The notes under the pieces: generated by a model
The model's input: the letters and a program-made list of their open reading frames with translations, nothing else
The model's database searches: none
What the model was told of the DNA's origin: nothing
Translations under genes and position numbers: made by a program
Part shown: one piece after another, positions 1,971 through 19,999 of the stretch
Numbering within the stretch: the first letter of the stretch is position 1
Layout of the letters: each line of letters opens with the position of its first letter
NCBI RefSeq assembly: GCF_000172155.1
Contig: NZ_ABIZ01000001.1
Span: 2,451,105 to 2,515,104, forward strand
Source: Verrucomicrobium spinosum DSM 4136 = JCM 18804
Lineage (GTDB): Bacteria > Verrucomicrobiota > Verrucomicrobiia > Verrucomicrobiales > Verrucomicrobiaceae
Reading direction: 5' to 3'
Length of the DNA stretch: 64,000 nt

Positions 1971-2000
1971 GCGGGTTTGCTGAAAATGGTGCAAACGGCG

Positions 2001-4259: not shown

Positions 4260-4285
4260 ACATCGTTGTTTCCTTGCTCGTGTCG

Positions 4286-4579: not shown

Positions 4580-4581
4580 AC

Positions 4582-5025: not shown

Positions 5026-5048
5026 GAGTCGTCGTCTTGGGAGTATTG

Positions 5049-5106
5049 TAGGGCGACCGCTCCGGTTGCCTCAGTGTTGGAGTGCCGCCTTTAGGCGGAA
5101 TCAGTC
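5049..5106. repeat. REP-like repeat pair between prophage genes
   Basis: The first part (5049-5072, starting TAGGGCGACCGCTCCGG) recurs at 16214-16237. The second part contains the perfect palindrome CCGCCTTTAGGCGG (5085-5098), which recurs with flanks at 9599-9612 and 15048-15061. Both are typical of REP-type elements that fold into short hairpins. Confidence 0.75.
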
Positions 5107-5127
5107 AGATGCTCTGTCAGCGTTGTC

Positions 5128-5664: not shown

Positions 5665-5689
5665 GGTCGTCAAAAGGTTCGATCCTCAA

Positions 5690-5705
5690 ACACACACACA
5701 CACAC
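5690..5705. repeat. (CA)n dinucleotide tract
   Basis: Eight or so CA/AC units directly abut the stop codon of the endolysin gene and precede the HXXEE-like gene. On the coding strand it is a GT run. Such tracts are slippage-prone, but this one is outside both reading frames. Confidence 0.8.
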
Positions 5706-6161: not shown

Positions 6162-6360
6162 GATCGTGATGGTTGGCGTTTGAAAACCTGCCGTCTCTCC
6201 GGCTGTCACGCATAGAGCCCGTTCCCGGGACCGCCCGCGTTCACGGCTCCTTCGTTGTATGTAGTATGGCCAGCACTGCGACACTCTCTTCACGCGACCC
6301 CAGGCAGCTTATGCCCCGACTGAGTTTCGACCCGCGCTACCGCTGGCACTTGAGAAATCC

Positions 6361-6795
6361 TTAAGGGGGTGTGATGGCATTCACGGCAGGCACAGCGCCG
6401 CTTTCCATTGCCTTGTTGGTGACGCTCGTCTTCGCTGCCAGCTCCGCAGCCTTCGTCCTTGCCTCAGCGTCGATCCTTGCAATCTCAGCCTTGGACAGTC
6501 CCGCCGCTTCCATCTGTTTGGTTGTCTCCTGCACCTTGATGGCCGCCCCCGCGAAGTAGGCTGTCGTCAACGTGTCCAGGAACTTCCCCGCAACATCCGC
6601 CCCTTTCTCAAAGGACTTGTGCATCTCGGAAACCACCGTCACCCGTTGCGTGCCATCAGGCTTGATCTCGTAGTCAGCGGCAATGTCTCCGCCAAACTGC
6701 TTGATGGGTGGCAGGCTCGGGTGAATCGGGATCTCGGCGCATGATACCATCAGGAGCGTGATCACCACGGACAAGAGGGAAGGGAGCGCTTTCAT
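6361..6795 (-). CDS. Small phage lipoprotein
   Basis: 144 residues with a lipoprotein signal: MKALPSLLSVVITLLMVSC, with the lipobox ending in Cys at about residue 19. The mature part is short and helical, ending in an Ala/Lys/Glu-rich stretch (ARIDAEARTKAAELAA). Its start overlaps the stop of the holin-like gene by ATGA, and the endolysin is downstream, so it belongs to the lysis cassette. A role like an outer-membrane spanin (Rz1-like) is possible but not shown. Confidence 0.72.
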   Translation of the reverse strand: MKALPSLLSVVITLLMVSCAEIPIHPSLPPIKQFGGDIAADYEIKPDGTQRVTVVSEMHKSFEKGADVAGKFLDTLTTAYFAGAAIKVQETTKQMEAAGLSKAEIARIDAEARTKAAELAAKTSVTNKAMESGAVPAVNAITPP

Positions 6796-7385
6796 TCCGC
6801 ATCACCTCCCACACGATTGTTGAGGCGGGCGCTCATCCGCTCAAAGATCTGAGCCTTGATGATGTCCAGCTCAGTGGTAGGGCGCGCTTCAGCCGCAGCC
6901 GCCTTTTTGGAAGGCATCATATCGCTGAAGGTGTTGCAGCTGCTCAGCATCATCAGAGCCAGCATAAGGAGAGCGATGCGCCCGGCCACCTCCGAGCCCG
7001 GACGCACCGCCCATTTGGCGACAGCAACCAAACTACCTGCCGCCAAAATCAGACCCGCGATCACCGCCACGCCCTGAGGACGCCAGTTTCGGCGGAGCTT
7101 CCCATATGCTGCCACCAGCAGGCCAATCGCGGGAGCAATCACCAGCTCCCAGTTGTCAGACGCCAGTTGCGCCAAATCCTTTGCCTCATCAGTGGGCACC
7201 TCCACACCCACCACCCCGGCGATCATGCCCACCACCGTGATGATCAAGCCCAGCTTGGTCATCTTCCCCTGAAGAATCTGCGGCTTGTCATAGACCGGGC
7301 GGGCCACCGGCGCTTGTTGGAGTTCCGCTTTCAGGCGGTCATGTCCATTGATGGACGCGGGCCGGGTATGTGGATCAGAGGGCAT
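6792..7385 (-). CDS. Holin-like membrane protein
   Basis: 197 residues from the ATG at 7385. It has a polar N-terminus, three hydrophobic segments (LGLIITVVGMIAGVVGV, LVIAPAIGLLVAAYG, VAVIAGLILAAGSLVAV) and another hydrophobic block IALLMLALMMLSSC that looks like a second lipobox inside the protein. Multiple helices and its place in the lysis block suggest a holin; the family is not recognised. The start is preceded by the A/C-rich leader AACCAACCAAAC. The sequence upstream to 7523 is also open but Trp/Cys-rich and unlike a signal region. Confidence 0.65.
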   Translation of the reverse strand: MPSDPHTRPASINGHDRLKAELQQAPVARPVYDKPQILQGKMTKLGLIITVVGMIAGVVGVEVPTDEAKDLAQLASDNWELVIAPAIGLLVAAYGKLRRNWRPQGVAVIAGLILAAGSLVAVAKWAVRPGSEVAGRIALLMLALMMLSSCNTFSDMMPSKKAAAAEARPTTELDIIKAQIFERMSARLNNRVGGDAE

Positions 7386-7627
7386 CAGTTTGGTTGGTTG
7401 AGTTGCATTCAACCCACTCCACCAGACTGGCCCGGCCCACCATGATGTACCGGGCCAGCCCTTGCAGTCGGAGACTGCGGAGTAGCAGGCACAGCGATCA
7501 TGCCCCAGCTTTCCCGATCCCAAACAATACCCGATACACTTCGGTTATTTCATCCACTTTCCCTCTCCGGGGGCGTGCCCGTCGTGGGGTAATGACGCAC
7601 GCGATCGCGCTTTTGCAACGATCCGCC

Positions 7628-7966
7628 TTAGACGCGCTGGTCCTGCTGGGCCAGCCACTTGGCTTTTAGGGCATACACGCTCGCCATGTTCACGCGATAC
7701 TTGCCGTTCTTGGCTCTCGCGTTTGGCTTCCATGCGTGAATCTCTTTCTCTTCAATCAGGAGGTACACCAGCTGCTTGTTGGGCAGGCCCAGTGCCTTTG
7801 CGGCATCGCTCACTGATCCTTCCACCAGCACCTTGCCCGGCGTCACCAGCACCCCGCCGCCCGGGTGCGGCGTCACCTTCACGGTGATAGACGAAGTGAA
7901 GCCCAGGAGGAGCTGCTTGCTCTCCTCCTGGGCCTTCTTCAACTTCGCTGGGGATTCGTAACCCAT
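7628..7966 (-). CDS. Small HTH protein, possible prophage regulator
   Basis: 112 residues. The middle has SVSDAAKALGLPNKQLVYLLIEEKEI followed by a basic KPNARAKNGKYRVNMAS wing, a layout like the MerR/excisionase-type winged HTH. It lies between the GemA-like gene and the lysis block, the position of the middle regulator Mor in Mu, but it shows no clear Mor/C similarity. A GTG codon directly upstream overlaps the previous stop; I prefer the ATG at 7966. A role in late-gene activation is inference from position only. Confidence 0.65.
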   Translation of the reverse strand: MGYESPAKLKKAQEESKQLLLGFTSSITVKVTPHPGGGVLVTPGKVLVEGSVSDAAKALGLPNKQLVYLLIEEKEIHAWKPNARAKNGKYRVNMASVYALKAKWLAQQDQRV

Positions 7967-7968
7967 CA

Positions 7969-8460
7969 CTACTTAGGGAACACAGTGGTAACAAATCGAT
8001 CTCTCCATGCGCGGACTTTTTCCTCTGTTAGATCGTCGGCATCGATGGTTTCGGATGGCCCCTTGAAGACGTTCTCAGGCGTGGAGATCTGAATCCCGAT
8101 GCTATTGGGGGCTTTTGCGTGGAATGCCAGATGACAATCCAGATGCCCATCCTCTTGAGACGCAATTGAGAGAGCCACATCCGCTTCCTTGTGAGGAGTT
8201 GGATCATCAAACAATGAAACGACATTCTCGGAGGTCGAATCAGCTGTTGCAGGAGTCTCCACGACCGCAAAGAATCCGTTGTCATTTAGTAATTTAGCTG
8301 TCTCCCCCAAGATGGGGAGCACCCTAGTTTGAATGAGGCTGTTCAGGACTTTGATCTGAGAGGCGCGATTGTTCATCTCAGCTGTCGCTTTTGCTTGCTT
8401 CTCCGACTGTGCAAGGTCGCGATCTGATCTGATGCCCTTGATGTAACTGTTAATATCCAT
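7969..8460 (-). CDS. Prophage protein of unknown function
   Basis: 163 residues, not recognised. Acidic, soluble, with a helical N-terminal half (SDRDLAQSEKQAKATAEMNNRASQIKVLNSL) and a more beta-rich C-terminal half. I chose the ATG at 8460 (MDINSYIKG), which follows an A/C-rich leader (AAACCAAACACAACCT); an earlier in-frame start at 8520 would add a basic tail. Base composition is lower in GC and less codon-biased than neighbouring genes, suggesting a recent arrival in the phage. Confidence 0.65.
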   Translation of the reverse strand: MDINSYIKGIRSDRDLAQSEKQAKATAEMNNRASQIKVLNSLIQTRVLPILGETAKLLNDNGFFAVVETPATADSTSENVVSLFDDPTPHKEADVALSIASQEDGHLDCHLAFHAKAPNSIGIQISTPENVFKGPSETIDADDLTEEKVRAWRDRFVTTVFPK

Positions 8461-8612
8461 AGGTTGTGTTTGGTTTCTCTTTGACACATCACATCTACCA
8501 CGAGTCTCCACTTTTCGCAAGCAACCCCGGGACGAAGCCCTAGAGCGGCAAACTCAGCTGGCCGCTCGCCGCTTCCAGTCGCGCCCTTCTGCGGGCCAGC
8601 CTGTCCTTTGCG

Positions 8613-8786
8613 TCATGCCTGTTGTGCCACCGTCAGCACCACCTTGCTCTTGGTGATGGGATGCGGCTCATGGTTCCTGCACCCGCACCACTCACAGCGA
8701 TTCCTCGCCCGGTAGAAGCGCACGAACTTAGACCGCAGTTTCCAATCCTTCGGATATCGGGCTTTGTTCTCAGGGAAGATGGGCAT
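8613..8786 (-). CDS. Small CxxC protein, truncated HNH-type
   Basis: 57 residues, MPIFPENKARYPKDW... The start, the RNRCEWCGCRNHEPHP zinc-binding CxxC and ITKSKVVLTVA match the N-terminal half of small HNH-type proteins common in Mu-like prophages. In those relatives the sequence continues with a VAHLDH histidine block and a second CxxC pair. Here it stops after TVAQQA, so the HNH active site is missing. It may be a remnant, or a short form that keeps only a zinc knuckle. It is preceded by the second copy of the 31-bp leader element. Confidence 0.72.
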   Translation of the reverse strand: MPIFPENKARYPKDWKLRSKFVRFYRARNRCEWCGCRNHEPHPITKSKVVLTVAQQA

Positions 8787-8793
8787 GGCTTTG

Positions 8794-8824
8794 TTAGTGT
8801 CTGGTTAGTGTCAGTCAGTGGTTC
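8794..8824 (-). promoter_or_regulatory. 31-bp leader element, copy 2
   Basis: TTAGTGT-CTGG-TTAGTGT followed by CAGTCAGTGGTTC on the plus strand, seven bases before the ATG of the CxxC gene. Its last part overlaps the stop codon of the GemA-like gene. Confidence 0.6.
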
Positions 8825-9249
8825 GCATTACTCCGCTTCTGTTGCGCACGCCTCCGCATCACCAGCGTGATCTTCAGCTGCTGGAGCTGCTCCTCATCCA
8901 GCCCCCGCCACTCAGCGGTGCCGAACTTGTCCATGGCCACTGCTTGCACATAAGGCTCAGGCCAGCCCACCAGCTCCACACCCTTCACGGCCCGTTTCAA
9001 CGGCCCTTCAACCGCCCGCTGTCCCACCTGGGGATTGGAGATAGCCAGGTATTTATCGAACGCATCAAGCACCCGGTCCAGGTCGGAGTTGGTAAAGTCC
9101 TTGCTGCTCTTGTCCTTGCCCAACGCCTCAGTGTGGATCTCATGCCTCATGGCCTCCGCCTCCTTGGCAGAGTATCCGCCCAGCTTCACCAGCACATCCT
9201 TCACCGCCAGCCACCGGCTGAGATACAGTTTTTGTTGTTTAGCGTTCAT
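8815..9249 (-). CDS. GemA-like protein (Mu gp16-like)
   Basis: 144 residues. The C-terminal part has the helical pattern FTNSDLDRVLDAFDKYL and LDEEQLQQLKITLVMRR, which resembles the DUF1018/GemA family. In Mu, GemA modulates host gene expression and replication. The N-terminal part (KLYLSRWLAVKDVLVKLGGYSAKEAEAMRHEIHTEALG) is compatible with that family but divergent. Position between the DUF2786-like gene and the regulator/lysis block fits gemA, which precedes mor and lys in Mu. Confidence 0.6.
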   Translation of the reverse strand: MNAKQQKLYLSRWLAVKDVLVKLGGYSAKEAEAMRHEIHTEALGKDKSSKDFTNSDLDRVLDAFDKYLAISNPQVGQRAVEGPLKRAVKGVELVGWPEPYVQAVAMDKFGTAEWRGLDEEQLQQLKITLVMRRRAQQKRSNANH

Positions 9250-9254
9250 GGCAA

Positions 9255-9563
9255 CTAGAGCTTGAACCTGTTGCCATTCCCAGGGCGAAGTGCGGACGAT
9301 CCACGAGAAAGCCGCTTGGTCGTGCCTGCGACTGGAATCGTCACAGGCTCTTCCTGCCCGCCCGGAGAGAGTTGAACAAACTTCGTTTTACTGGGCACAG
9401 AGAGCACCTCAAACTTTATCTCATCATCTCTGAGGGTGATCGTCTCCTTATACAGTCTGTCTTCCGCCTTCACGGCTTTGCTCATCAACTTCACCACCTT
9501 GGTGGCATCATCGATGTTGGGCAGCAGGAAGGCATCATATCCAATTTTCAGAATGGCTTTCAT
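9255..9563 (-). CDS. Prophage protein of unknown function
   Basis: 102 residues, not recognised. It starts MKAILKIGYDAFLLPN and continues as a small alpha/beta domain; the last 30 residues are basic and probably disordered. The ATG at 9563 follows the A/C-rich leader CCAACCAAACGACC. It ends five bases before the GemA-like gene, so it is in the same operon. Confidence 0.62.
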   Translation of the reverse strand: MKAILKIGYDAFLLPNIDDATKVVKLMSKAVKAEDRLYKETITLRDDEIKFEVLSVPSKTKFVQLSPGGQEEPVTIPVAGTTKRLSRGSSALRPGNGNRFKL

Positions 9564-9584
9564 GGTCGTTTGGTTGGTTCGCTA

Positions 9585-9618
9585 TCAGGGTTGGAGTACC
9601 GCCTTTAGGCGGAATCAG
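9585..9618. repeat. REP-like palindrome, copy 2
   Basis: GGTTGGAGTACCGCCTTTAG continuing into GCGG and AATCAGTC. The core palindrome CCGCCTTTAGGCGG lies at 9599-9612. It sits between the stop of the downstream gene and the gene at 9630. Confidence 0.7.
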
Positions 9619-9629
9619 TCCTCAGTTCA

Positions 9630-10337
9630 TCAGCTCAGCACAAGTCGCAGTTGTTCTTGTCCCTCGCCCACCTTCTTCGCCCGCTCCCAGGCATCACCCG
9701 TGAGTGATTTCCTGATCCTCTCGCGGCGGACGTACTCTTGAACTTCGCGCTCTGTCACCTTGCGTGACGTCGGGGCTTTGGCGGGCCGATCGCTCGGCTC
9801 AACGTCAGCATAAATCTTGTACTTCATCCAAAGCACCTCCAGCAGCTCCGCCTTGGTGGCGGCATTCTCCTTGAGCTTCGCTTCCAGCTCCTTCTCAATT
9901 TGCTTAATCTGCTCCTTGGCCATGGCCTTGGCTCGCTTCTCTCGGTCAGTGATGGCGTCAATCTGCTCCTCCATCATCTGGGCATAGTACGCAAAGCAAG
10001 CCCGCAGATCCGCCGCATCCAGTGGAGTCAGCAGAAACACCGCATGCTCCTTGGTCACGCTCATGACGGGCACCTTCACCTTGTTCATGATCCAGCTCGC
10101 ACACTGCAACATCAACTTGCGCCCCCACCGGCGCTTGCCCCACACCAGCACACTGGGCCCAGCAACATCACTGCTCACACTCTCCTCAGTCAGCCCATGC
10201 TTCTTGAGGATCTCATCATACCTCAGCCGGGCGCTCTCACGCTCACCCTCGGTTGCCCCAGGGCAATCAATCAGCGTCTTCAGTTTGGCCAGCTTTTCGC
10301 GGATCGTTTCGAGGTTGGTTGTTTGGTTGTCGTTCAT
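9630..10337 (-). CDS. DUF2786-like prophage protein
   Basis: 235 residues from the ATG at 10337. The N-terminal 45 residues (REKLAKLKTLIDCPGATEGE...RYDEILKKHGL) fit the DUF2786 pattern, a short helical domain common in phage and plasmid proteins. A middle alpha/beta region (ASWIMNKVKVPVMSV) is followed by a long charged coiled coil. The ATG overlaps the stop of the preceding gene by ATGA. Its first codons (MNDNQTTN) are themselves built from an ACCAAACAACCAAC tract, like the leaders of other genes here. Confidence 0.65.
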   Translation of the reverse strand: MNDNQTTNLETIREKLAKLKTLIDCPGATEGERESARLRYDEILKKHGLTEESVSSDVAGPSVLVWGKRRWGRKLMLQCASWIMNKVKVPVMSVTKEHAVFLLTPLDAADLRACFAYYAQMMEEQIDAITDREKRAKAMAKEQIKQIEKELEAKLKENAATKAELLEVLWMKYKIYADVEPSDRPAKAPTSRKVTEREVQEYVRRERIRKSLTGDAWERAKKVGEGQEQLRLVLS

Positions 10338-10564
10338 GGCATCAGGCACTTGGGACGGTGGAGGGTTTGACCTTTCATCTTGCGGCTCTCGCGCAGCGTG
10401 CGGGCGGTGAGGCGGTCCACATAGCGGCGGAATCGTTTCACCGCCGCCTCACCTCTGCGGATCTCACGGGCTGGATACCGCTGGCGATCCTTGGAAGCCC
10501 TCGCCTGGGCAAGCTCAGCCTCCGCCAACGCCAACACCAATTGATAGGCTTCCGTGGAGTTCAT
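10334..10564 (-). CDS. Small basic prophage protein
   Basis: 76 residues, not recognised, Arg-rich and largely helical (AYQLVLALAEAELAQARASK). Coupled to the next gene by an ATGA overlap and separated by three bases from the Gam-like gene. Most likely an early operon gene; no function can be assigned. Confidence 0.6.
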   Translation of the reverse strand: MNSTEAYQLVLALAEAELAQARASKDRQRYPAREIRRGEAAVKRFRRYVDRLTARTLRESRKMKGQTLHRPKCLMP

Positions 10565-10567
10565 CGC

Positions 10568-11200
10568 TTACTTGCTCTCCGGCTGAAGGTTCAAGTCGAT
10601 CACGAAGCTCTCCGCGCTTACCACCCTCGCGCCCAGTGTCGCCAGCTGGATGGTGGCAATCTGTGCCCGCTCAGCGGCCAGTGCTTTCGGATCTTCATCC
10701 TCCTCCAGGCCGTCCACTTCCTTCACCTCCTTGGCCTCGCGGAACCACTTGAGAACCGCCTCTTTGTCCGCCTCCTCAACGGTGCGCACAAAGCCCTCAG
10801 CCCAGCCACCAGATGCCTTACAAGCAATGATAAAACCTTCCTCCTTCTGCGTGCCGCTGCCGCCCGTGGGCTTGCACCACTTGACCGCTGGAGGGCTCGT
10901 CTGGAAGCCAATCTTGTGCCCGCCATAGACCTCCATCTTGCGGGCGTTGTCGCCTTCAAAGCTGGACTTGTTCTGCAACGCCCAGTTCTGCACGGTAAGC
11001 GCGTTCACCTCAAGGGTCGCCCGAAAGCTCTTGGAGTCCTTTTCCGCCTGGGCCTTCAGCTTCTCCACCGCCTGGGCAAACTCCGCCTCAATCCGGGCGA
11101 TCTCACAATGCGCCTCCACATACTTGGTGAGAGCCTTGCGCATCTGCGCCTCGGTCACTTCATCCGGAGTCACCGCCACTTTGGTTGTTCTCTTGCTCAT
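10568..11200 (-). CDS. gam: Gam-like host-nuclease inhibitor
   Basis: 210 residues. The helical coiled coil IARIEAEFAQAVEKLKAQAE, then ALTVQNWALQNKSSF and the strand pair VYGGHKIGFQTSPPAVKW match the Mu Gam/Ku-like fold. Mu Gam binds linear DNA ends and protects them from host exonucleases. In this protein the Gam core is followed by a second region with a TVEEADKEAVLKWFREAKEV helix and an acidic linker (GLEEDEDP). The core is near the usual Gam length. Its position after MuB and before the gemA-type genes agrees with early genes of Mu-like phages. Confidence 0.75.
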   Translation of the reverse strand: MSKRTTKVAVTPDEVTEAQMRKALTKYVEAHCEIARIEAEFAQAVEKLKAQAEKDSKSFRATLEVNALTVQNWALQNKSSFEGDNARKMEVYGGHKIGFQTSPPAVKWCKPTGGSGTQKEEGFIIACKASGGWAEGFVRTVEEADKEAVLKWFREAKEVKEVDGLEEDEDPKALAAERAQIATIQLATLGARVVSAESFVIDLNLQPESK

Positions 11201-11242
11201 AGGTAGTTTCCTTTCGTCTTGTGTGTTGCTTCACTGAAAATC

Positions 11243-11491
11243 TCACTCTCCCGCAGCGTGCTTCAGCCGGGCGATGATCTCTTTCCTCCGGGGCTCACGC
11301 TCCGCCCAGCGCTGTGTCTCCAGCACGCCCGCCATCTTGACCGCCCAGTTGCGATCAAAGGCATAGTCCCGACCATCCCCCAGCTTGATCGTGATCACCG
11401 TCTTACCTCGTCCCAGCTTGGTGATGTCCTTCGTGATCGTGACGTTGTTCAAGTCGTCACCCACCATCTTGATTTCACGCTTTACGCTCAT
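11243..11491 (-). CDS. Small prophage protein of unknown function
   Basis: 82 residues, MSVKREIKMVGDDLNN. A beta-rich stretch (TVITIKLGDGRDYAFDRNWAV) is followed by a basic helix. Not recognised. It lies between the MuB-like and Gam genes, with a 50-base gap to MuB, and probably belongs to the early operon. Confidence 0.62.
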   Translation of the reverse strand: MSVKREIKMVGDDLNNVTITKDITKLGRGKTVITIKLGDGRDYAFDRNWAVKMAGVLETQRWAEREPRRKEIIARLKHAAGE

Positions 11492-11543
11492 GGCTTCAGG
11501 TCTTCAGTCTTTCGTCTTCCAGTCTTCTGTCTCCGCGCAGCGG

Positions 11544-12521
11544 TCAGGCGGCCAGCTTGTAATCCACCACCTGCTTGGCCAAAGCCATGCGGAAGGCATC
11601 CTCAAACGTCCCGGCCCCGCGCTTGCCGTCGGCATACCAGCCCTTGGCCACGCTCACCACCTGACGCAGCGCCCGCAGCGCACCCGGGCGCTCCACCACC
11701 TCCGCCGCCAGCCCGGCCAGGTCCGCCACCGCTTCCGGCCAGGTCTTTTCCAGATACGCCTTGGCCACCTCCGCCGTGGTCCGCTTAAGGTCGCACTTCG
11801 TGGTCACACCGATCCGGCTGGGCCCGCGCTGCACCTTTCGCATGGTCGTGGCCAGCTCGCTGTTTCCCACCAGCACCACGGGGCACCCCGTGCCATCGTG
11901 AAATCCTAGAACCCACTCCAGCCCCTTCTCAGAGAGCAGGTGGGCGTTGTCGATGATCAGCAGCCGCCCCGTGCCCGTGAAGCGGTCCAGCAACCACTCA
12001 CCCTTGCTCTGCTCCTTGGGGGCAAAGCTGGCCGTGTTGATCCGCCTCCAGAACGCCCGGACCATCGCCGTAGGGGTGCCGCCACCCGTCACCGTGTTCA
12101 ACTCCAGTCTGATGGCCCACGGGTCCGCATCCGCGTACATCTTCAGAGCGCAGCTCTTGCCCAGCCCGGGCTCACCGATCACCATGCCCATCATGGCGTT
12201 GCGCTTGGCAATGTCACAAGTGTTGCTGATCTGCTTCACCACCAGCGTGTGGAACAGGCGCTTGTCCTCTTCCGGCATCTGGGCCCGCAACTCCGCATTG
12301 ATCACCAAATCCTCCAGCTTGGCCTCCAGCGCCTTCACGTCCCCCTCCGGTTTCCCGTTGAGATACTTGCTTATGGCAGCGGGGGAGTTGCCCAGCATCT
12401 TTTGCAGATCCGTCAGGGTCCATCCATGCTGCACCTTCACCGCCAGCAGCCGTGCATGCAGCTGCTCGTTGAAGGGCTTCACCTTTGCCGCCTGGGTGTT
12501 GGTTGTTGTTGTCGTGTCCAT
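11544..12521 (-). CDS. MuB-like AAA+ target-selection ATPase
   Basis: 325 residues. An N-terminal HTH (LARLLAVKVQHGW-type, TLTDLQKMLGNSPAAISKYL, about 33-55) is followed by an AAA+ domain with Walker A GEPGLGKS (116-123) and Walker B LLIIDNAH. The sensor-like segment is VVLVGNSEL. MuB binds DNA, captures the transposition target and delivers it to MuA. The ATG at 12521 is chosen because the protein then starts MDTTTTTNTQ and follows the leader AACAACCAAACACG. The gene is downstream of the transposase, as in Mu, separated by one small gene. Confidence 0.88.
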   Translation of the reverse strand: MDTTTTTNTQAAKVKPFNEQLHARLLAVKVQHGWTLTDLQKMLGNSPAAISKYLNGKPEGDVKALEAKLEDLVINAELRAQMPEEDKRLFHTLVVKQISNTCDIAKRNAMMGMVIGEPGLGKSCALKMYADADPWAIRLELNTVTGGGTPTAMVRAFWRRINTASFAPKEQSKGEWLLDRFTGTGRLLIIDNAHLLSEKGLEWVLGFHDGTGCPVVLVGNSELATTMRKVQRGPSRIGVTTKCDLKRTTAEVAKAYLEKTWPEAVADLAGLAAEVVERPGALRALRQVVSVAKGWYADGKRGAGTFEDAFRMALAKQVVDYKLAA

Positions 12522-12556
12522 CGTGTTTGGTTGTTGGAAATTGTCTTTGCCCGTCC

Positions 12557-12862
12557 TCACGCTTCGCCGCTCTGCATCGCCCTCGTTGCCTCGGCGATGT
12601 TCCTTTCAAGCCCGCTGATGCGCTGGCTCTCTTCCTGAAGGTGCTTCCCCAGCTTGGCCCTCTCGTGCCCGATCCAGAGCACCCCGGTGCGCACATGCTT
12701 TCCCGCCTCCGCCGTCCGCATCACCTCATCATGACGGGAAAGCAGCGCCTCCAGCTCAAGCTCCACAATCGCCAGCTTGCCGCTCTTCTCCTCCACCTCC
12801 CGCAACCGGGAGCGGGAAGAAACCAGCCTCTGTTCCAGTGCCATCAGTGCGTGATTGCTCAT
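12557..12862 (-). CDS. Coiled-coil prophage protein
   Basis: 101 residues, almost entirely helical with heptad-like spacing (ALEQRLVSSRSRLREVEEKSG, then KLGKHLQEESQRISGLERNI). Not recognised. It lies between the transposase and the target-selection ATPase, an unusual insertion between A and B genes. The start follows an A/C-rich leader with ACACAACCGAACACG. Confidence 0.6.
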   Translation of the reverse strand: MSNHALMALEQRLVSSRSRLREVEEKSGKLAIVELELEALLSRHDEVMRTAEAGKHVRTGVLWIGHERAKLGKHLQEESQRISGLERNIAEATRAMQSGEA

Positions 12863-12927
12863 ACTCTTATCGTGTTCGGTTGTGTTATTACCTTATCCCT
12901 TTTCCCTTGCCCCTTTGACCCTCTCTC

Positions 12928-15006
12928 TCACTCGTCCATCGGGTCCATGCCGTCCATTTGCCCCGCCGCCACTCCCAGCGGCTTCGCGCGCAGCCCTCGG
13001 CCCTTATCACTTGCCCCTCTTTCCGCCTCATCCATCACCCCCTCAGCCGCCCGCCCGGCCCGCGCATTCTTGCCCGCTGCCGTCACCTCCCGCTCCGTCA
13101 CCGGCTCCCCATCCATCACCGCCTGATTGTGCTCGATCATGTGCTGACGCTGCACCACCAGAGACTGTGCATGCGCCCGGGCCTCGCCCTCCAGCTCCAC
13201 GCGCAACTGCTCAATGCTGCCGTGCACCCTCATGGCTCCATCCGCATCCAGTACCCCAGACTTGGGCATCAGATTGACCAGCCCAATGGCGGCGTCTGAC
13301 TCATCGCAGACCAAGGCAGTGTCAGGGCTGAAAGGGTTGGCGTACACCCTCAGCTTGTCCCCAGGGCTCAGCACCTCAATGCGTCCATGCTTGTTCGTTG
13401 CCCGCGCCATATAGACCAGACTGCCGCCACCTGGGGCGCGGTCCTTGATCTTGATCGTGTGATTGTCCTGAACCTTGGTTGCTGTCGCGTATTCGTTGGG
13501 GAGGCACAGGTTCCACAAATGCCGATTGAGTTTGGTGAGCTGATGTTTCCCACCATTGAACACCTCACGAGGGGACAGTTTCCGCAGCCGTCCATGTCCC
13601 GGCATCGCCATCAGGCGCAGGGCAAATTCCTTGGCCCGCTCATCAGGCAGCCGCAAGACATCCTCGTAGCTCATCCACTCATCTCCCCGGAGATCCACGC
13701 GCACCTCATTGGCCACAAACCCGCACTCCTCCCAGCCCTCCAAATCGTGCCAGTCACGCTGGTTCATCATCTCCATCAGCGTGTGATTCACCTGTCCAAA
13801 CTCCTGCCAGGTCATCACTTCCTTGACCAGCAGAGCAGCCCGTTGCGGGGGCAGCTTCTCTGCCCATTTCAAGAGCTTGTCATTGTACTTGAGCAACGCG
13901 TAATTTTCCTCCGGAGCCGTGAGCCGTGTGCCTGTCGCGCCTTTGAGATGACTCATGATCGTGCGGACCAGTGCGAAGGAACTTTCAATGTGACTCTTGA
14001 AACGGAAGTTGCCCCGTGGCGCTCCCTTGAACGCGAGCCCCTCCAACATGGGCCCGCCCAGAATGCCGCTCGTGGCCACCTGCACCTTGCCATCCGTCAC
14101 CCGGGCCAATCCCTCAGCCAGGGCCGCACGAATCGCCGCCGTGCCTTTCTCCGCCATGAAGGTCGTGCCGACGTCCGCCCGATACCCGTGCTCAGTCAGC
14201 ACAAAAAGCACGAACCACGCGCAATCCTCCTCTGTCAGACGGGAACGTGATCCATCCTCAGGATTGTAGATCATCGGCTTGGCGCAATGGGCAAAGTGAC
14301 AGGCACTCAGCACCTCCAGCGCATTGAACCCACTAGGCCGCATCGCCCGGCGATTGATCCCCACAAGGTTCGTGTACACGTCGTAGTCCTGGTCATCGAT
14401 CTGGTACAAGGCACCAAACTCCAGCCCCACCCGCGTGCGGATGATGTTGGGGAGCATCTCCTTTGCCGCCATCGTCCCGCGGCGACGGGTGATCAGGCTG
14501 AACTTGCTCGGCTTGAGCCGGGAGAGATTCTCCTTGCTCCATCCCTCTGGCAGTCCCGTGTGCACCTGCGGCTCCGGTGGGCTGTCGTATCCAGGGATCT
14601 GCATCGTCACATCTCCCGCCCGCCACTTGCGCCACTGGGCCACCACCTTGCGGTGCACCTCCCGTCCAGTCTGGCCGCGCTGATGGGCAAAGTACATGGA
14701 CTGCACAAAGTCCCGGAAAGCAGGCGGCAACCCCGCCTCACGATGCACCGGCCACTTCGCCCGGTTGATCAGCTTTTCCCAGCCGTGATCCTGCCAGTCA
14801 AACCACTTTCGGTTAAAGGTGCTAACAGGAATGCCATTCGCTTTGGCCACGCTCTCCCGCGCCGCCACAATGCCCATGCCCGTGGCCACCGCCTGCTGCA
14901 CCTTGCAGAACATGGACAGCCAGCGCTCCACATCCTTCCGGCAATCATATTCCAGCTGGGACATCTCCAGATGTTCCTCAGGCTTAAGCGCAACGGTCAG
15001 GTTCAT
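12928..15006 (-). CDS. MuA-like DDE transposase
   Basis: 692 residues, the size of MuA (663). An N-terminal DNA-binding region is followed by the retroviral-integrase-like catalytic core. The first acidic residue lies in YQIDDQDYDV (about 204) and the terminal Glu in SHIESSFALVR (about 341). The middle acidic position falls in RADVGTTFMAEKGTAAI (about 280), where the usual DNG is replaced by AEKG. This marks a divergent MuA branch, and the exact catalytic residue there is uncertain. The C-terminal domain has a beta-barrel-like region and a low-complexity tail. MuA binds phage ends and carries out replicative transposition. Confidence 0.85.
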   Translation of the reverse strand: MNLTVALKPEEHLEMSQLEYDCRKDVERWLSMFCKVQQAVATGMGIVAARESVAKANGIPVSTFNRKWFDWQDHGWEKLINRAKWPVHREAGLPPAFRDFVQSMYFAHQRGQTGREVHRKVVAQWRKWRAGDVTMQIPGYDSPPEPQVHTGLPEGWSKENLSRLKPSKFSLITRRRGTMAAKEMLPNIIRTRVGLEFGALYQIDDQDYDVYTNLVGINRRAMRPSGFNALEVLSACHFAHCAKPMIYNPEDGSRSRLTEEDCAWFVLFVLTEHGYRADVGTTFMAEKGTAAIRAALAEGLARVTDGKVQVATSGILGGPMLEGLAFKGAPRGNFRFKSHIESSFALVRTIMSHLKGATGTRLTAPEENYALLKYNDKLLKWAEKLPPQRAALLVKEVMTWQEFGQVNHTLMEMMNQRDWHDLEGWEECGFVANEVRVDLRGDEWMSYEDVLRLPDERAKEFALRLMAMPGHGRLRKLSPREVFNGGKHQLTKLNRHLWNLCLPNEYATATKVQDNHTIKIKDRAPGGGSLVYMARATNKHGRIEVLSPGDKLRVYANPFSPDTALVCDESDAAIGLVNLMPKSGVLDADGAMRVHGSIEQLRVELEGEARAHAQSLVVQRQHMIEHNQAVMDGEPVTEREVTAAGKNARAGRAAEGVMDEAERGASDKGRGLRAKPLGVAAGQMDGMDPMDE

Positions 15007-15033
15007 AGGGTCTCTTGGTCGTGTCTATCGGGG

Positions 15034-15063
15034 TCAGTGTTGGAGTTCCGCCTTTAGGCGGTC
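15034..15063. repeat. REP-like palindrome, copy 3
   Basis: CAGTGTTGGAGTTCCGCC with core palindrome CCGCCTTTAGGCGG at 15048-15061. It overlaps the last codons and stop of the minus-strand gene ending at 15054, so the repeat provides that gene's C-terminus (LTA). Confidence 0.7.
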
Positions 15064-15371
15064 AGGTCCTGCGGTTTTGGCAGCAGGTGGGCAAAGAGCC
15101 CTTTGCCCGTTTCCGTGAGCGTCACGCTGGTCTGGTGATGGTTTGCACCTCGGGTCACGTTCACCCATCCAAACTTGGCAAAGCGGTAGATCGTAGCCTG
15201 CACACCCCGCTCATCCAGCCCCAGCTCCTTGGCTATCTGATAGGAGCCCTTGGCTGGCAGACAACACAGGATGGACAGTCCCGCGATGGTCATCTTGGTG
15301 TTGGTTTCCACCAGAGGCTTCAGCACCCGTCTAAAGCGCCTCAGCGCCTGCTTCAGTTCAACGTCTTCCAT
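15054..15371 (-). CDS. Winged-helix regulator of the early region
   Basis: 105 residues with a MarR-like winged-helix pattern: TIAGLSILCCLPAKGSYQIA, then KELGLDERGVQATIYRFAKF as recognition helix and a wing VTLTETGKGLF. Typical DNA-binding repressor size. It lies directly upstream of the transposase and could regulate early transcription; there is no direct evidence. Its stop codon lies inside a REP-like repeat. Confidence 0.65.
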   Translation of the reverse strand: MEDVELKQALRRFRRVLKPLVETNTKMTIAGLSILCCLPAKGSYQIAKELGLDERGVQATIYRFAKFGWVNVTRGANHHQTSVTLTETGKGLFAHLLPKPQDLTA

Positions 15372-15409
15372 AGTAGTTTCCTCACCTTCAGTTTCTGTGA
15401 TATCGCCCT

Positions 15410-16201
15410 CTACTCATCCAACGGGTCCGGCCTGCCTCTGCCACCCTTGCCCCTCTGGTGCTTGATGGCTTCCTCCACCATCCCCAGCGTCTTTTGCAGC
15501 TCCTGCTTGAGGAACTGCAACCCGGCTTGCTGCCCCTCGTTGGCATCCGCCACCATCGGCAGCGCGTAGATCATCGCCTCCACATTGGGCTGCATGTTCA
15601 GCTCTCCAATCGCCTCCAGCACCGGCCACACCTCCTTTTGCGCCAGCTCGTCCAGCGACAGCTTTCCGCCGCTCCCGGGCGTCCGACCATTCCCACCGCC
15701 CTGGGCTCCGTTCGCCTTTTTGCTGATTCCCCAATGGGCCATCAGACCCTTGACCGTGTTCCCGTCCGTCACCTTGGCCACCGCCTTCATGATCTCATCG
15801 CGGTCTTCGCTGGAGAGCTTCATGAGAGGAGTGTTCAGGAGATCCTTGCCTTGCAGCACCGGAATCCTCCGCTTCGCTTCCTCCGCCATGGCCATGCAAT
15901 AGCGGGCCTTGTCGTCCCCGAATCCCATTTCCTTCTGGACCAGTTCTCCCCAGGAGATGGAAATTCCCGAATCGTTTCGGGAATTTCCCGGACGACCTGC
16001 TTTCACCCCGTACACCTTGTGCAGGCGGAGCAGCTCCACCCCGCACAAGATCAGGCATCCCGCCATGGCCATCGCCGCCCGGCTCGCCGCCTCCATGTAC
16101 TCCCTCGCCTGGGCAAAGTCCTCCGAGACTTCGCGTGGCACACCCAGTTTCCCCGCCTTTGATTCCGGTGGCAGCACCGTCAATGTTCCTGTCTTGCTCA
16201 T
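15410..16201 (-). CDS. Prophage protein of unknown function, early operon
   Basis: 263 residues, not recognised. A helical N-terminal half (EDFAQAREYMEAASRAAMAMA) is followed by a SWGELVQKEMGFGDDKARYCM stretch and a GISKK-type basic linker. The C-terminal half is rich in Leu/Glu and ends in RGKGGRGRPDPLDE. The shape suggests a DNA-binding or replication-associated protein, but no domain can be named. Confidence 0.6.
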   Translation of the reverse strand: MSKTGTLTVLPPESKAGKLGVPREVSEDFAQAREYMEAASRAAMAMAGCLILCGVELLRLHKVYGVKAGRPGNSRNDSGISISWGELVQKEMGFGDDKARYCMAMAEEAKRRIPVLQGKDLLNTPLMKLSSEDRDEIMKAVAKVTDGNTVKGLMAHWGISKKANGAQGGGNGRTPGSGGKLSLDELAQKEVWPVLEAIGELNMQPNVEAMIYALPMVADANEGQQAGLQFLKQELQKTLGMVEEAIKHQRGKGGRGRPDPLDE

Positions 16202-16213
16202 AATTCAGTCTTG

Positions 16214-16237
16214 TAGGGCGACCGCTCCGGTTGCCTC
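16214..16237. repeat. REP-like repeat (second copy of 5049-5072)
   Basis: Contains TAGGGCGACCGCTCCGGTTG followed by CCTC, an exact copy of the sequence at 5049-5072. It lies upstream of the unknown gene at 15410-16201. Confidence 0.72.
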
Positions 16238-16253
16238 TCTTCGTTGTTAATTC

Positions 16254-16505
16254 CTAGTTGCTTCCAAAGTAAGCCTTCAGATCCGTGTCAGTCGGCTGCG
16301 ACCTCAGCTCCGCCAGCTGCCATGTGTCGTACAGGTCCGCATCCTCCCGCTTCTCCACACCCACACGCCACACCCTGATTTTGCCTTGCTGCATGCCCAG
16401 CACCCGGCCAAGCACCATCTGGTTCATGAGCCCGCCGATGTCCCAGGCCGTCACCTGCACCAGCTCCCCAGTCTTGGGAATGCGTTTCAATCCGATCCCT
16501 GGCAT
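16254..16505 (-). CDS. Small prophage protein of unknown function
   Basis: 83 residues, MPGIGLKRIPKTGELVQVTAW. A compact, probably beta-rich protein; the motif GKIRVWRVGVEKRED could be an SH3-like strand set. Not recognised. It is tightly packed with the next gene (two-base gap). Confidence 0.58.
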   Translation of the reverse strand: MPGIGLKRIPKTGELVQVTAWDIGGLMNQMVLGRVLGMQQGKIRVWRVGVEKREDADLYDTWQLAELRSQPTDTDLKAYFGSN

Positions 16506-16507
16506 GG

Positions 16508-16753
16508 CTACACCCCCTCCTTTCCAAGGATGGCCCGCAGCTCCCCGCGCATGACCGCTTCAGCGTACTTGAGCCCTGTGATCTCGCAGTGCAGTTGCCC
16601 CATACGATGCACGGCAATGGGATCACCGTCTTTCCGATAGCTTGCAGAGATCAGCTCCAGGCGCTTGATCTCCACCTTGACCCGGTGCCTCGCCCGCATC
16701 AGCGCTTGAGCTTCCAAAGGCACACGGGGGCGGCGTATAGAAGTGGCTTTCAT
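16508..16753 (-). CDS. Small basic prophage protein
   Basis: 81 residues, MKATSIRRPRVPLEAQALM, basic and helical. Not recognised. Its start is 12 bases beyond the third copy of the 31-bp leader element, so it is the first gene of its transcription or translation unit. Confidence 0.58.
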   Translation of the reverse strand: MKATSIRRPRVPLEAQALMRARHRVKVEIKRLELISASYRKDGDPIAVHRMGQLHCEITGLKYAEAVMRGELRAILGKEGV

Positions 16754-16765
16754 ATCTGCAAAAAA

Positions 16766-16796
16766 TTAGCGTTTCGTTAGCGTCAATCAGTGGTCC
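16766..16796 (-). promoter_or_regulatory. 31-bp leader element, copy 3
   Basis: TTAGCGT-TTCG-TTAGCGT followed by CAATCAGTGGTCC. Both 7-bp repeats carry the same T-to-C change relative to copies 1 and 2, so the repeat symmetry is preserved. It is just upstream of the gene at 16508-16753. Confidence 0.6.
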
Positions 16797-16805
16797 CCAT
16801 CCCAG

Positions 16806-17186
16806 TTACTTCCTTGAACGCACCCCTTGTTTGGAGTCCCCGAACTCGTCAAACGCGCTCATCTTGTCCTTCTGATCCTTGCTCAAGGACGCCAGGAACT
16901 GGGGAAACGTCCCGCCTCCCGTGGGGTCTGCCATCTCCTCCGTTTCATTGGCGATCACATACGGCACTGGGTCATCACTCTTGCCCAGGTGCAGCTCCAC
17001 GGCATCATCCCACCCGTCCCCATACCCTTCACCATTGCCCAGGGCATAGCAGATTACGGCCGCTGCAATCAGGGTGATGGCACACACAAGTGTCTCACCT
17101 GAACTCAAGCTCGCCCCGATCAGGATCTGTTGGAACCCAAAGGCAAGGATCACGGTCACAACGGCATTCCTCAATTCAGCTTTCAT
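16806..17186 (-). CDS. Small two-helix membrane protein
   Basis: 126 residues from the ATG at 17186. Two membrane helices (AVVTVILAFGFQQILIGASL and LVCAITLIAAAVICYAL) are followed by a polar, acidic C-terminal part. Not recognised. The start is preceded by the A/C-rich leader CCAACCAAACAACCACG. Upstream in-frame codons also read open to 17324, but their composition is unlike a signal region. Confidence 0.62.
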   Translation of the reverse strand: MKAELRNAVVTVILAFGFQQILIGASLSSGETLVCAITLIAAAVICYALGNGEGYGDGWDDAVELHLGKSDDPVPYVIANETEEMADPTGGGTFPQFLASLSKDQKDKMSAFDEFGDSKQGVRSRK

Positions 17187-17226
17187 CGTGGTTGTTTGGT
17201 TGGTTGGCGTTTGGCTGTCTGTTGTT

Positions 17227-17469
17227 TCACAAACCGGAGTCACTCCGGAAAAAGTCCTTGAACCGCAGTTGCAGCGATTCACTGGCGCGGAGCGATTCCG
17301 CATACCTCCGTGCATCCCGTGCAAGGGTGGGGTCCGCAGAGGCCATCACGTGAGCAATTGCGTCGTACACATCCGCCCGGTCAGCAGGCGGCATGGTCTC
17401 AGCAGCAAGTCCCGCGGCTCTCACCATCGGCTCCAGCATTGCCTTGCGAGTGGCCCGGTCCATCCTCAT
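17227..17469 (-). CDS. Small early prophage protein
   Basis: 80 residues, MRMDRATRKAMLEPMVRAAG, helical and mildly acidic. Not recognised. The first codon overlaps the stop of the Ner-like gene by ATGA, so it is translated with it. A role in lysogeny control or early regulation is inference from position. Confidence 0.6.
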   Translation of the reverse strand: MRMDRATRKAMLEPMVRAAGLAAETMPPADRADVYDAIAHVMASADPTLARDARRYAESLRASESLQLRFKDFFRSDSGL

Positions 17470-17642
17470 GGCAGGCGCAGCTCCTCCTTGATCATCTTCC
17501 GCAGCTTCGGGTGCACGGTGGGATGATTGATGACCCTACTGACCGCGTTTCTGGAGCGCTTCAGTTTCTTGGCCAAATCCGTCACAGACAGATGCCTGTC
17601 GATCAGGGCTTTTTTCACGGTGGTGGTGAAATCCGGTTGCAT
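17466..17642 (-). CDS. Ner/Cro-like HTH protein
   Basis: 58 residues from the ATG at 17642 (MQPDFTTTVKK). The HTH is in ALIDRHLSVTDLAKKLKRSRNAVSRVINHP, a size and placement like Mu Ner. Ner shuts down the repressor/early promoters and favours lytic growth. It is divergent from the S24 repressor, with an 80-base control region between them. A longer frame up to 17771 is open but overlaps the repressor promoter and its first part looks non-coding. Confidence 0.8.
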   Translation of the reverse strand: MQPDFTTTVKKALIDRHLSVTDLAKKLKRSRNAVSRVINHPTVHPKLRKMIKEELRLP

Positions 17643-17722
17643 CAGTGGGCACTTGTGGTTAGCAGTTGGTATTAGCAGATGCACACTATTTGTCATCTCG
17701 TGCCAACAGTGCAAGCCAAAAA
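17643..17722. promoter_or_regulatory. Divergent control region between Ner and repressor
   Basis: Eighty bases between the two start codons. It contains TTAGCAG repeated 14 bases apart (17660 and 17674 region) and TGCACACTATTTG at 17680-17692, which is repeated at 2001. These are candidate operator sites for the repressor or Ner; I cannot tell which protein binds. Confidence 0.5.
17680..17696. promoter_or_regulatory. Candidate repressor-region operator
   Basis: TGCACACTATTTGTCAT, upstream of the repressor ATG. A 16/17 match lies at 2001-2017. Confidence 0.35.
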
Positions 17723-18622
17723 ATGCCCAAAATGCAAAATATTGCCGAGAGGCTCCGAGTACTACGCACAAAATTAGGCATCACCCAGGAGCAGCTAGCC
17801 AACCTCCTCGGGCTGTCGAGGAACTATATTGGGCTCATGGAGAAGGGCCGCGAACCCTCCAAAGGCGTGCTCTCGCGCATTGAGCAGCTCGAAGCAGAGA
17901 TGAAAGAGGGCAACGAAGTCGTGATTCCAGATGACGGCCCAGCGGTGGACATCGGCAACGCCCGCCAACTGCTCAAGCAAGCCCGCTTGCGCAAGGCCCT
18001 CACCGTGGATCAGCTCGCCAAGTCCATCAGATACAGCACCGGATACCTGCAAGCTCTGGAAGAGGGGAGAGCCCCCGCCAGTGCCAAGGTCATCGCATTG
18101 CTGGAAAAGGCTCTCAATCTTGACCCCGGCACCCTCTACCGTGGCTCAGAACCCGGAGTCATCCGCGAAGACGGACTCACCGCCCCCTACGGCACCAAGC
18201 CCCAGGTGGAGACCACCAAAGGTGTGGGCCCAGCCCGTTACATCCCCCTCATCGGCTACTCACAGGCAGGCATAGGCAACTACGAAGATCTTTACGAGCA
18301 CGAATCAGTGATTGCATTTGGAACCACCGACAGCAAAGCCTTTGCCACCCGCTTGCGTGGCGACTCCATGGAGCCCAAATATTCAGAGGGAGACATCCTC
18401 TATGTCTCACCCAACGCCACGCCGAAAAACGGCGATATCGTGTTGGCAAAAGTGGACGAAGCCCATGGAGGAGACGTCATGTGCAAGCTCTACAGCAGCC
18501 GGGACGGCGGGAAAAACATCGTCCTCAGCAGCTACAATGCCGCCTATCCTCCCATGGAATTCTCACGTTCCATCATGCAGTTTGTCTATCCCGTTTCAGC
18601 AGTCCTCAAACCACTCCACTGA
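17723..18622 (+). CDS. Prophage repressor: two HTH domains plus S24 peptidase
   Basis: 299 residues from the ATG at 17723 (MPKMQNIAERL; the next Met is three codons later). Two Xre-type HTHs are visible: IAERLRVLRTKLGITQEQLA...NYIGLMEKG (about 6-45) and ARQLLKQARLRKALTVDQLA...GYLQALEEG (about 80-118). A LexA/CI-type S24 peptidase domain follows, with a likely self-cleavage Ala-Gly in YSQAGIGNYE, the Ser in LRGDSMEPKYSEGD and the Lys in GDIVLAKVDE. It should keep the prophage silent and be inactivated by RecA-stimulated self-cleavage. A second HTH is unusual for this class. It is transcribed away from all other phage genes. Confidence 0.88.
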   Translation: MPKMQNIAERLRVLRTKLGITQEQLANLLGLSRNYIGLMEKGREPSKGVLSRIEQLEAEMKEGNEVVIPDDGPAVDIGNARQLLKQARLRKALTVDQLAKSIRYSTGYLQALEEGRAPASAKVIALLEKALNLDPGTLYRGSEPGVIREDGLTAPYGTKPQVETTKGVGPARYIPLIGYSQAGIGNYEDLYEHESVIAFGTTDSKAFATRLRGDSMEPKYSEGDILYVSPNATPKNGDIVLAKVDEAHGGDVMCKLYSSRDGGKNIVLSSYNAAYPPMEFSRSIMQFVYPVSAVLKPLH

Positions 18623-18642
18623 ACCCCACACCTCACCCCATC

Positions 18643-19035
18643 ATGAGCACCATCACCCCGTCATTCTGGGTCCGCTACAACGGCGGCGGCACCGCTGGAC
18701 CATTCTCCAAACCCGAACTGATCCAGAAGATCCAGGCCGGAGAAATCCGCCCCACCAATGACATCATGGAGCAGGGCGGCACCTGGGCACCCCTCAGCTC
18801 CCGCCCCGACCTCACCCCCGCGCCCATCGCTGGCACCACCTCCCGCACCCAGGCCACGAGCAAGCCCGTCCTTCAAACCGACGTCACCAAGTACATCGGC
18901 TGGGCCCTCCTCATCACCGGCGGCGTCCTCATGGCCAGCCTCGCCACCGGCCTCGCCACACCCCTCCTGGGCATCATCGGCCTCGCCCTCGCCCTCGTCG
19001 GCCTCATCGTCCGCCTCATGGCCCCAAAATCATGA
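18643..19035 (+). CDS. GYF_2-domain membrane protein
   Basis: 130 residues from the ATG at 18643. The N-terminal 55 residues (FWVRYNGGGTAGPFSKPEL, then IQAGEIRPTNDIMEQGGTW) match the GYF_2 pattern of bacterial membrane proteins. Two hydrophobic segments follow near residues 85-125 (GWALLITGGVLMASL and GIIGLALALVGLIVRLM). It is transcribed with the repressor, only 20 bases after its stop. It may be a lysogenic-conversion gene or host sequence; the exact prophage end is unclear. Confidence 0.68.
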   Translation: MSTITPSFWVRYNGGGTAGPFSKPELIQKIQAGEIRPTNDIMEQGGTWAPLSSRPDLTPAPIAGTTSRTQATSKPVLQTDVTKYIGWALLITGGVLMASLATGLATPLLGIIGLALALVGLIVRLMAPKS

Positions 19036-19072
19036 GCCCTCGAAAGCCCGTTTCAAACCCCTTGAAAGCCCC

Positions 19073-19393
19073 ATGAATCCCCACGTCACCAAGCTTCCCA
19101 GCAACACCGCTCTGGTGATCAATGAAGCGCTCCACGAGATTGGGGACACGGAAGGTGCCGCCCTTTTCCTTGATGCCTTGGAAGTCACGGATAAGCGCCT
19201 TCGCTTCATCCCTCCCTGTTTCCTCCCTATCACCGTCACCCCACAGGTCACCCAGGCCGTGCTGTCGGTCGTCACTGCGGGCCAGCTGGATGCTTACGTG
19301 AACTCCGGAGTCGATTCACAGACCCTGCTCCTGCTGGTCACAGAGTGGCAAGCGGAGCTGTCCGGTCAGGTCTCAAGTTTACCAAACCATTGA
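19073..19393 (+). CDS. Small protein of unknown function behind repressor
   Basis: 106 residues from the ATG at 19073 (MNPHVTKLPSNTAL). Soluble, with a helical first half (ALVINEALHEIGDTEGAALFLD) and a second helical half (QLDAYVNSGVDSQTLLLLVTEWQAEL). Not recognised. It is the last gene transcribed with the repressor and therefore probably the last gene of the prophage on this side. Confidence 0.55.
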   Translation: MNPHVTKLPSNTALVINEALHEIGDTEGAALFLDALEVTDKRLRFIPPCFLPITVTPQVTQAVLSVVTAGQLDAYVNSGVDSQTLLLLVTEWQAELSGQVSSLPNH

Positions 19394-19497
19394 TAATTCC
19401 CCCGTGTCAGCCGGTTGCGCTGCTCAAACCTCCGCCAACGCCTGGCTGTCCGTTAGTCCACCGTAACCCGCTCACCCTCAGCGTTTATCAGGCTCCA
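19394..19497. other. Probable prophage end region
   Basis: No gene here. Two TTTATCA copies 20 bases apart (around 19483 and 19503) and a TGATAA near 19391 could belong to transposase end-binding sites, but no terminal TG or five-base target duplication can be seen with only one end in the window. Confidence 0.3.
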
Positions 19498-19812
19498 TCA
19501 GGGTTTATCAATCCCGCTGCAAGGAACGTGCGAAGGGCCGTCATTCGCCACCATCAACGGTAGATCAGCATGGAACCGCAGGCGGAACTGCTGTCCGCCG
19601 TGCTGGATGAGCAGGAGGGAGGGGCGATCCTGCCCTTCACCACTCCAGAAACAGTGGCGGATGGCATCCACCAACCCAGGGATCTTGCCCTGCCCGCGGT
19701 CCGGGAAGTGGCGTTTTGTTCCTTCGTGAAGCAATACCCACTCCTTACGCTCTGGGACGCTGCTGACGATGTAAACCAATTCTTGGGAAGTGGATTGGGT
19801 ATCGGATTTCAT
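19498..19812 (-). CDS. Small protein downstream of a LexA-like palindrome
   Basis: 104 residues, MKSDTQSTSQELVYIVSSVP. A strand-turn-strand with KEWVLLHEGTKRHFPDRGQG is followed by helical IPGLVDAIRHCF and strands LLLIQHGGQQFRLRFH. Not recognised, although the pattern of short strands resembles small DUF2188-like domains. The start codon abuts a perfect 16-bp palindrome. If that is a LexA box, the gene is part of the DNA-damage response; it resembles no known SOS gene. Confidence 0.62.
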   Translation of the reverse strand: MKSDTQSTSQELVYIVSSVPERKEWVLLHEGTKRHFPDRGQGKIPGLVDAIRHCFWSGEGQDRPSLLLIQHGGQQFRLRFHADLPLMVANDGPSHVPCSGIDKP

Positions 19813-19828
19813 GTGTTCATATGAACAC
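19813..19828. promoter_or_regulatory. Perfect palindrome matching a Verrucomicrobia-type LexA box
   Basis: GTGTTCATATGAACAC, a perfect 16-bp palindrome containing TGTTC-ATAT-GAACA. This fits the TGTTC-N4-GAACA motif I recall as the LexA site of Verrucomicrobia. It directly abuts the ATG of the minus-strand gene at 19812. Confidence 0.6.
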
Positions 19829-19999
19829 TTTCTCTGGAAATTGTCAATCGCGATTTTGGGCGAGGGGGGTGGGGTGTAGTGTGGGAGACGAAGGCTGTCC
19901 TACGAAGATGCTGCCTGCCGGTGAATTTCGTATGAAGGCGGGCGTCCACCCCGCCACCGTTCCGCCGGAGGTGTGCCATCTGATGCCCCCAACGGAGGC

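Follow-up and report, generated by a model that had tools for sequence, protein, structure and literature searches.

A probable LexA operator before an orphan gene-dinB operon split by a Mu-like prophage in Verrucomicrobium spinosum

The perfect palindrome GTGTTCATATGAACAC is very probably the LexA operator of an SOS operon that consists of an orphan gene and dinB, the gene for DNA polymerase IV (Pol IV), and that has been split in this strain by a Mu-like prophage. The palindrome lies in the window, that is, the whole stretch of 64,000 nucleotides analysed here (G000:C1:2451105-2515104, G000 being the window's own genome). The operon is uninterrupted in two congeners, G001 and G003. On this reading, the probable SOS network of a phylum that has been little studied would gain an orphan gene, with DNA polymerase IV as its partner. 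Coordinates of the features are collected in Table 1.

Table 1. Features of the window and perfect TGTTC-N4-GAACA sites of the genome (window coordinates unless a G000:C1 position is given)
Feature	Position	Strand	Remarks
Portal protein-like	423..1994	-	phrog_113, E 2.4e-36
Terminase large subunit-like	2134..4302	-	phrog_5909, E 2e-13
Transposition protein B-like	11544..12560	-	phrog_296, E 1.5e-44
Transposase A-like	12928..15006	-	phrog_310 transposase, E 9.1e-8
Small HTH gene divergent from repressor, ner-like by position	17466..17771	-	weak PHROG HTH matches, best E 0.00015
Prophage repressor, HTH domains and S24 peptidase domain	17666..18622	+	Peptidase_S24, E 2.2e-18; phrog_4 repressor, E 6.5e-36
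Mu-like prophage, right-hand part	1..19529	.	whole element G000:C1:2435317-2470633, 35,317 bp
End-located repeat TTGATAAA, possible transposase site	19504..19511	-	3 copies in the whole prophage, each within ~45 bp of an end
Out-of-place 3' tail of ORF (rest of codon 95 to stop)	19498..19529	-	encoded by prophage end; homology to relatives ends at 19530
5-bp target-site duplication (TTCGC on minus strand)	19530..19534	.	second copy G000:C1:2435312-2435316, outside window
Orphan gene, host part (codons 1-94 and first base of codon 95)	19530..19812	-	86% (G001) and 83% (G003) identical
Palindrome, probable LexA operator	19813..19828	.	GTGTTCATATGAACAC; core TGTTCATATGAACA at 19814-19827
-10-like TCATAT	19819..19824	-	within palindrome, 6 bp before ATG; TCAYAT at same place in three species
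-35-like TTGACA	19842..19847	-	17 bp upstream of -10-like hexamer; position and spacing equal in G000, G001, G003
Perfect site L001			beside ImuA-like RecA relative; NCBIfam ImuA 27.9 bits, cut-off 150
Perfect site L002			beside Y-family polymerase
Perfect site L003			orphan gene at 19498-19812
Perfect site L005			SRAP gene, start 424 bp away
Perfect site L009			beside recQ
Perfect site L010	G000:C1:7996535 (1501-1514)		globin gene, then apparent second recQ (recQ read by eye)
Perfect site L011			beside recA

Results

The palindrome is 16 bp long, and its edge abuts the minus-strand ATG (19812-19810) of the open reading frame (ORF) at 19498-19812. The original prediction, made from the letters of the window, had named a perfect LexA-type palindrome directly at the start codon of this gene, and both points were confirmed; it is also the sole perfect copy of TGTTC-N4-GAACA in the window. 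This form, shared by the window palindrome, is reportedly that of the LexA-binding motif of Verrucomicrobia. From base composition, 0.033 perfect sites would be expected per 64-kb window and 4.2 per genome; the genome (a single contig of 8,220,857 bases) holds 11, and a control with the reversed pattern gave 2. The motif is enriched genome-wide, and part of the 11 sites may be chance occurrences because of that expectation and the control count. Sites with up to 2 mismatches number 17 in the window versus 23.1 in shuffles, so the degenerate matches there carry no meaning.

ORFs were called around all 11 perfect sites, and 10 chosen ORFs were scanned against Pfam. A comparison with recA had been proposed as a check, and its outcome agrees with the prediction: the same perfect motif stands at recA, and also at an ImuA-like gene, a Y-family polymerase and recQ. 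Genes of these kinds (recA, ImuA-type, Y-family polymerase, recQ), together with dinB, are classical SOS genes. At four of the 11 sites (L004, L006, L007 and L008) no repair gene was in view among the neighbouring ORFs. Flanks were compared with the loci of 16 of the 24 sites in G001 and G003; six of the 11 (L001, L002, L003, L006, L007, L008) matched and the other five found no match among those 16. The recA-type site sequence TGTTCAATCGAACA was found in both congeners, at a site outside the 16 compared loci. Two observations on single sites may be added. L006 (1501-1514; G000:C1:4784650) and L007 (1501-1514; G000:C1:5923277) are perfect boxes that both congeners match, with no recognised repair gene adjoining. 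A bacterial globin gene begins 18 bp after the L010 box; globin and the apparent recQ helicase form a possible SOS operon.

The lexA gene of G000 was identified with a score over the curated cut-off. Its promoter carries TGCACAACCGAACA, of the form TGCAC-N4-GAACA, with 2 mismatches to the motif. The same form, with one spacer base differing, is found at lexA of G001 and G003, so that all three congeners stand at 2 mismatches; before lexA of two sister-genus genomes there is no TGTTC-N4-GAACA site with 2 mismatches or fewer. In the comparison with lexA, proposed alongside that with recA, the perfect motif was absent from the lexA promoter. In the three congeners this promoter reads TTGACT-17-TCACAT-6-ATG, which is the arrangement seen at the orphan gene. 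Another element, GAACAGTGTTC, with half-sites facing outwards, stands before lexA in five genomes of two genera (L012, L078, L079, L080, L081), and at lexA it is better kept across those genomes than any TGTTC-N4-GAACA form.

The palindrome might instead serve another host regulator, one that binds TGTTC-N4-GAACA. Such a regulator would fit the degenerate form at lexA's own promoter and those of the 11 sites with no repair gene in view, but the motif recurs at recA, the ImuA-like gene, the Y-family polymerase and recQ, and it stands directly before dinB in a sister genus. We consider this very unlikely, and LexA is retained as the probable ligand.

In G000, G001 and G003 alike, TTGACA starts 35 bp before the ATG of the orphan gene and 17 bp before TCAYAT. 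The hexamer TCATAT weakly resembles TATAAT and is here taken as the putative -10 element. If TCAYAT has this role, transcription would start at the ATG or right beside it (a leaderless start), and bound LexA would cover the -10 region of that promoter.

The orphan gene is carried by three of the 57 nearest genomes, namely G000, G001 and G003, and a separate contig scan again gave G001 and G003 as the relatives that possess it. In a phylum sample of 387 genomes there were three matches: G000, G001 and a marginal one (E 9e-4) inside a frame of 1855 residues. All three genomes possessing the gene have a perfect box before it, with spacers ATAT and ACAT (gene strand) in the G001 and G003 orthologues. 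Nucleotide changes by codon position were 8, 0 and 16 between G000 and G001 (dN/dS 0.122), 15, 5 and 29 between G000 and G003 (0.149), and 12, 7 and 35 between G001 and G003 (0.137). Since the changes fall mostly in third positions, with dN/dS of 0.12-0.15, the ORF is coding and constrained by purifying selection.

The protein had no Pfam or NCBIfam match over cut-off; a weak hemP match (E 0.08-0.11) was below its cut-off. AlphaFold, run on three sequences, gave a mean pLDDT of 54 and placed strands and a single helix in residues 12-80, along with a tail of low confidence; a Foldseek search of the PDB returned 0 matches at E <= 0.001. A likeness to DUF2188, noticed by eye, was dropped when hhalign against seven members from relatives returned a probability of 0.2% over 15 columns, a weak test in that the query profile held three close sequences. 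Upstream of the box, on the same strand, lies a polyketide cyclase/SRPBCC-like gene (window 20000-20569, minus strand), and the DNA on this side of the box is common to G001, not G003. Beyond it, a plus-strand ORF of 1783 residues (window 20996-26347) looks by eye like a hybrid sensor kinase with multiple PAS domains and a receiver at the C terminus.

The intact form of the gene in G001 and G003 is 122 codons long, and dinB, coding for Pol IV, begins 56 bp past its stop. Against NF002677 (DNA polymerase IV; cut-off 256) the G001 dinB protein reaches 351 bits. A point absent from the original prediction is that in these relatives the orphan gene probably heads an operon with dinB. Two genomes of the sister genus g2 were examined, and in each a perfect box immediately precedes dinB; the distance from its first base to the ATG is 34 bp in one and 44 bp in the other. 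Thirty polymerase loci were fetched in all; the gene was located in 22 of them and the other 8, with the start word unmatched, were dropped. A site with 0 or 1 mismatch lies upstream in five of the 22 readable loci (G001, G003, G004, G014 and G042) and in none of the other 17. In the simplest history, dinB would have been under control of the box first, with the small gene interposed later.

The operon DNA of G001 matches G000 in two parts, 2470634-2470694 (window 19530-19590) and 2433436-2435316, and the query ranges of the two matches overlap by 5 bases. It can be seen that TTCGC stands at both prophage junctions in G000 and is single at the G001 site. A profile of the orphan protein finds residues 94-122 at 2435229-2435315, beyond the prophage, and when the flanks are joined in silico an uninterrupted ORF of 122 codons is restored, with dinB 55 bp behind. 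These results indicate that the prophage was inserted in codon 95 of the orphan gene and left the remainder of that gene, together with dinB, on its far side, outside the window. The dinB copy of G000 is an intact ORF with an IMS domain match at G000:C1:2434682-2435143 and no box with 0 or 1 mismatch within 1.5 kb upstream. An ORF of 104 residues does start directly at the box, as had been proposed, but it is not an intact gene: codons 1-94 belong to the host, and the rest is supplied by the prophage end. Similarly, the gene had been placed close to a prophage with a self-cleaving repressor. An S24-type repressor does adjoin it; the gene is, however, cut by the prophage and not merely situated at its edge.

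Besides the genes of Table 1, the prophage has matches to a head protease and a major head protein and a weak one to a tape-measure protein. Most of its long ORFs are on the minus strand, the strand of the operon; the repressor, which lies at the small-gene end, is encoded on the plus strand. The order is thus SOS promoter, head of the small gene, repressor end of the phage, early and late genes, tail of the small gene, and dinB. Like other Mu-like transposable prophages, the element has A-like and B-like transposition genes, a 5-bp target duplication and end-located repeats, and its repressor gene, located at one end, runs in the opposite direction to most of the others. It differs from Mu in that its repressor has an S24 peptidase domain, which the c repressor of Mu is not known to have. 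Its transposase A is remote from the known Mu-type family (phrog_310, E as in Table 1).

A phage origin of the palindrome was also considered, as operator of the prophage repressor or of another phage regulator, with the small gene as a phage accessory gene. It lies 284 bp from the end of a prophage that has an S24-type repressor. Against this, box and gene are also found in G001 and G003, where dinB follows directly and no prophage intervenes, a relative of the phage transposase was found in neither genome, the whole prophage contains no TGTTC-N4-GAACA with 0 or 1 mismatch, and both box and gene lie outside the target duplication; the relatives' loci and the box scan led us to reject a reading that is scarcely credible. 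A plus-strand transcription terminator is just as implausible and was rejected on shuffle counts: the scan does list 19813-19828 with the tail TTTCTCTGGA as terminator-like, but there are 7 such sites versus 4.5 (sd 2.0) in shuffles, the plus-strand ORF ending there (19570-19824; best Pfam match DUF5635, E 0.028, below cut-off) is antisense to the conserved gene, and the core letters of the palindrome are kept in other species.

Discussion

Several points favour a LexA operator at the head of the orphan gene-dinB operon: the box is perfect in three of three genomes, its motif is that of repair genes, the -35 element and its spacing are conserved, and boxes stand at dinB in the sister genus. 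The points against are the mismatches at lexA, the roughly four sites expected by chance, the 4 of 11 sites without a repair gene, the poor -10 hexamer, and the 17 of 22 polymerase loci without a box. As in the LexA-controlled dinB of the bacterial SOS response, a palindrome of the repair-gene motif precedes an operon ending in the Pol IV gene. In contrast to that system, the operon begins with an orphan gene (carried by 3 of 57 near relatives), and in G000 it is cut.

In the intact operon, cleavage of LexA after DNA damage would free transcription of the orphan gene and dinB, which would be co-transcribed. In G000 the Mu-like prophage has landed in codon 95, co-directionally with the operon and with duplication of the 5-bp target. 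The SOS promoter would now yield a truncated protein of 104 residues, made of the conserved core and a tail from the phage end. This short protein may still work, because the retained residues 1-94 include the best-conserved part and the only part modelled with moderate confidence. The putative promoter points into the repressor end of the prophage, and dinB lies behind the far end with no LexA box before it. Judging from this arrangement, dinB in G000 has most likely lost LexA control.

Co-induction of the gene with the prophage would be plausible. It would need the prophage's own operators or read-through as its route, because the prophage holds no box with 0 or 1 mismatch. A more elaborate possibility, which we regard as unlikely, is that the prophage, having landed co-directionally behind the host SOS promoter, is tied to it at both ends: damage would, through release of LexA, cause antisense transcription through the repressor toward the early genes and so aid induction, and dinB would be read from the late operon of the phage in place of LexA control. 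If true, translesion synthesis would be linked to prophage induction, and the site at which the prophage sits would have altered the wiring of part of the SOS response in the host. Among minus-strand terminators that might stop SOS read-through there were weak candidates only, in counts near those of shuffles; between the phage end and dinB the scan found no terminator on the minus strand.

The split operon amounts to a natural experiment, in which one strain has its mutagenic polymerase cut from the damage switch and two relatives keep the operon intact. Comparison of these strains would bear on the worth of SOS control of Pol IV and on the push that a host SOS promoter may give to a neighbouring prophage. 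The kinds of element concerned (SOS box, dinB, Mu-like insertion) are known; this gene and the split operon appear to be undescribed in the literature searched. At the level of titles and abstracts the search gave no paper on the orphan gene-dinB operon or on the prophage insertion; the box itself may have been reported in Erill et al. 2016 (Front Mol Biosci 3:33), to which the LexA-binding motif of Verrucomicrobia is attributed. That work is cited in PMC8565304 for SOS control of a Verrucomicrobia uracil-DNA glycosylase system, and dinB is named there among the well-documented SOS genes.

Two more related transposases are present in G000, 38% and 37% identical to that of the window. It was considered whether this type of phage targets SOS genes; both related transposases lie more than 100 kb from all 11 perfect boxes, and one of three beside a box reads as chance. 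They point to two further Mu-like elements, at G000:C1:6057478-6062785 and 7342131-7348064, each with an S24-type protein within ~5 kb.
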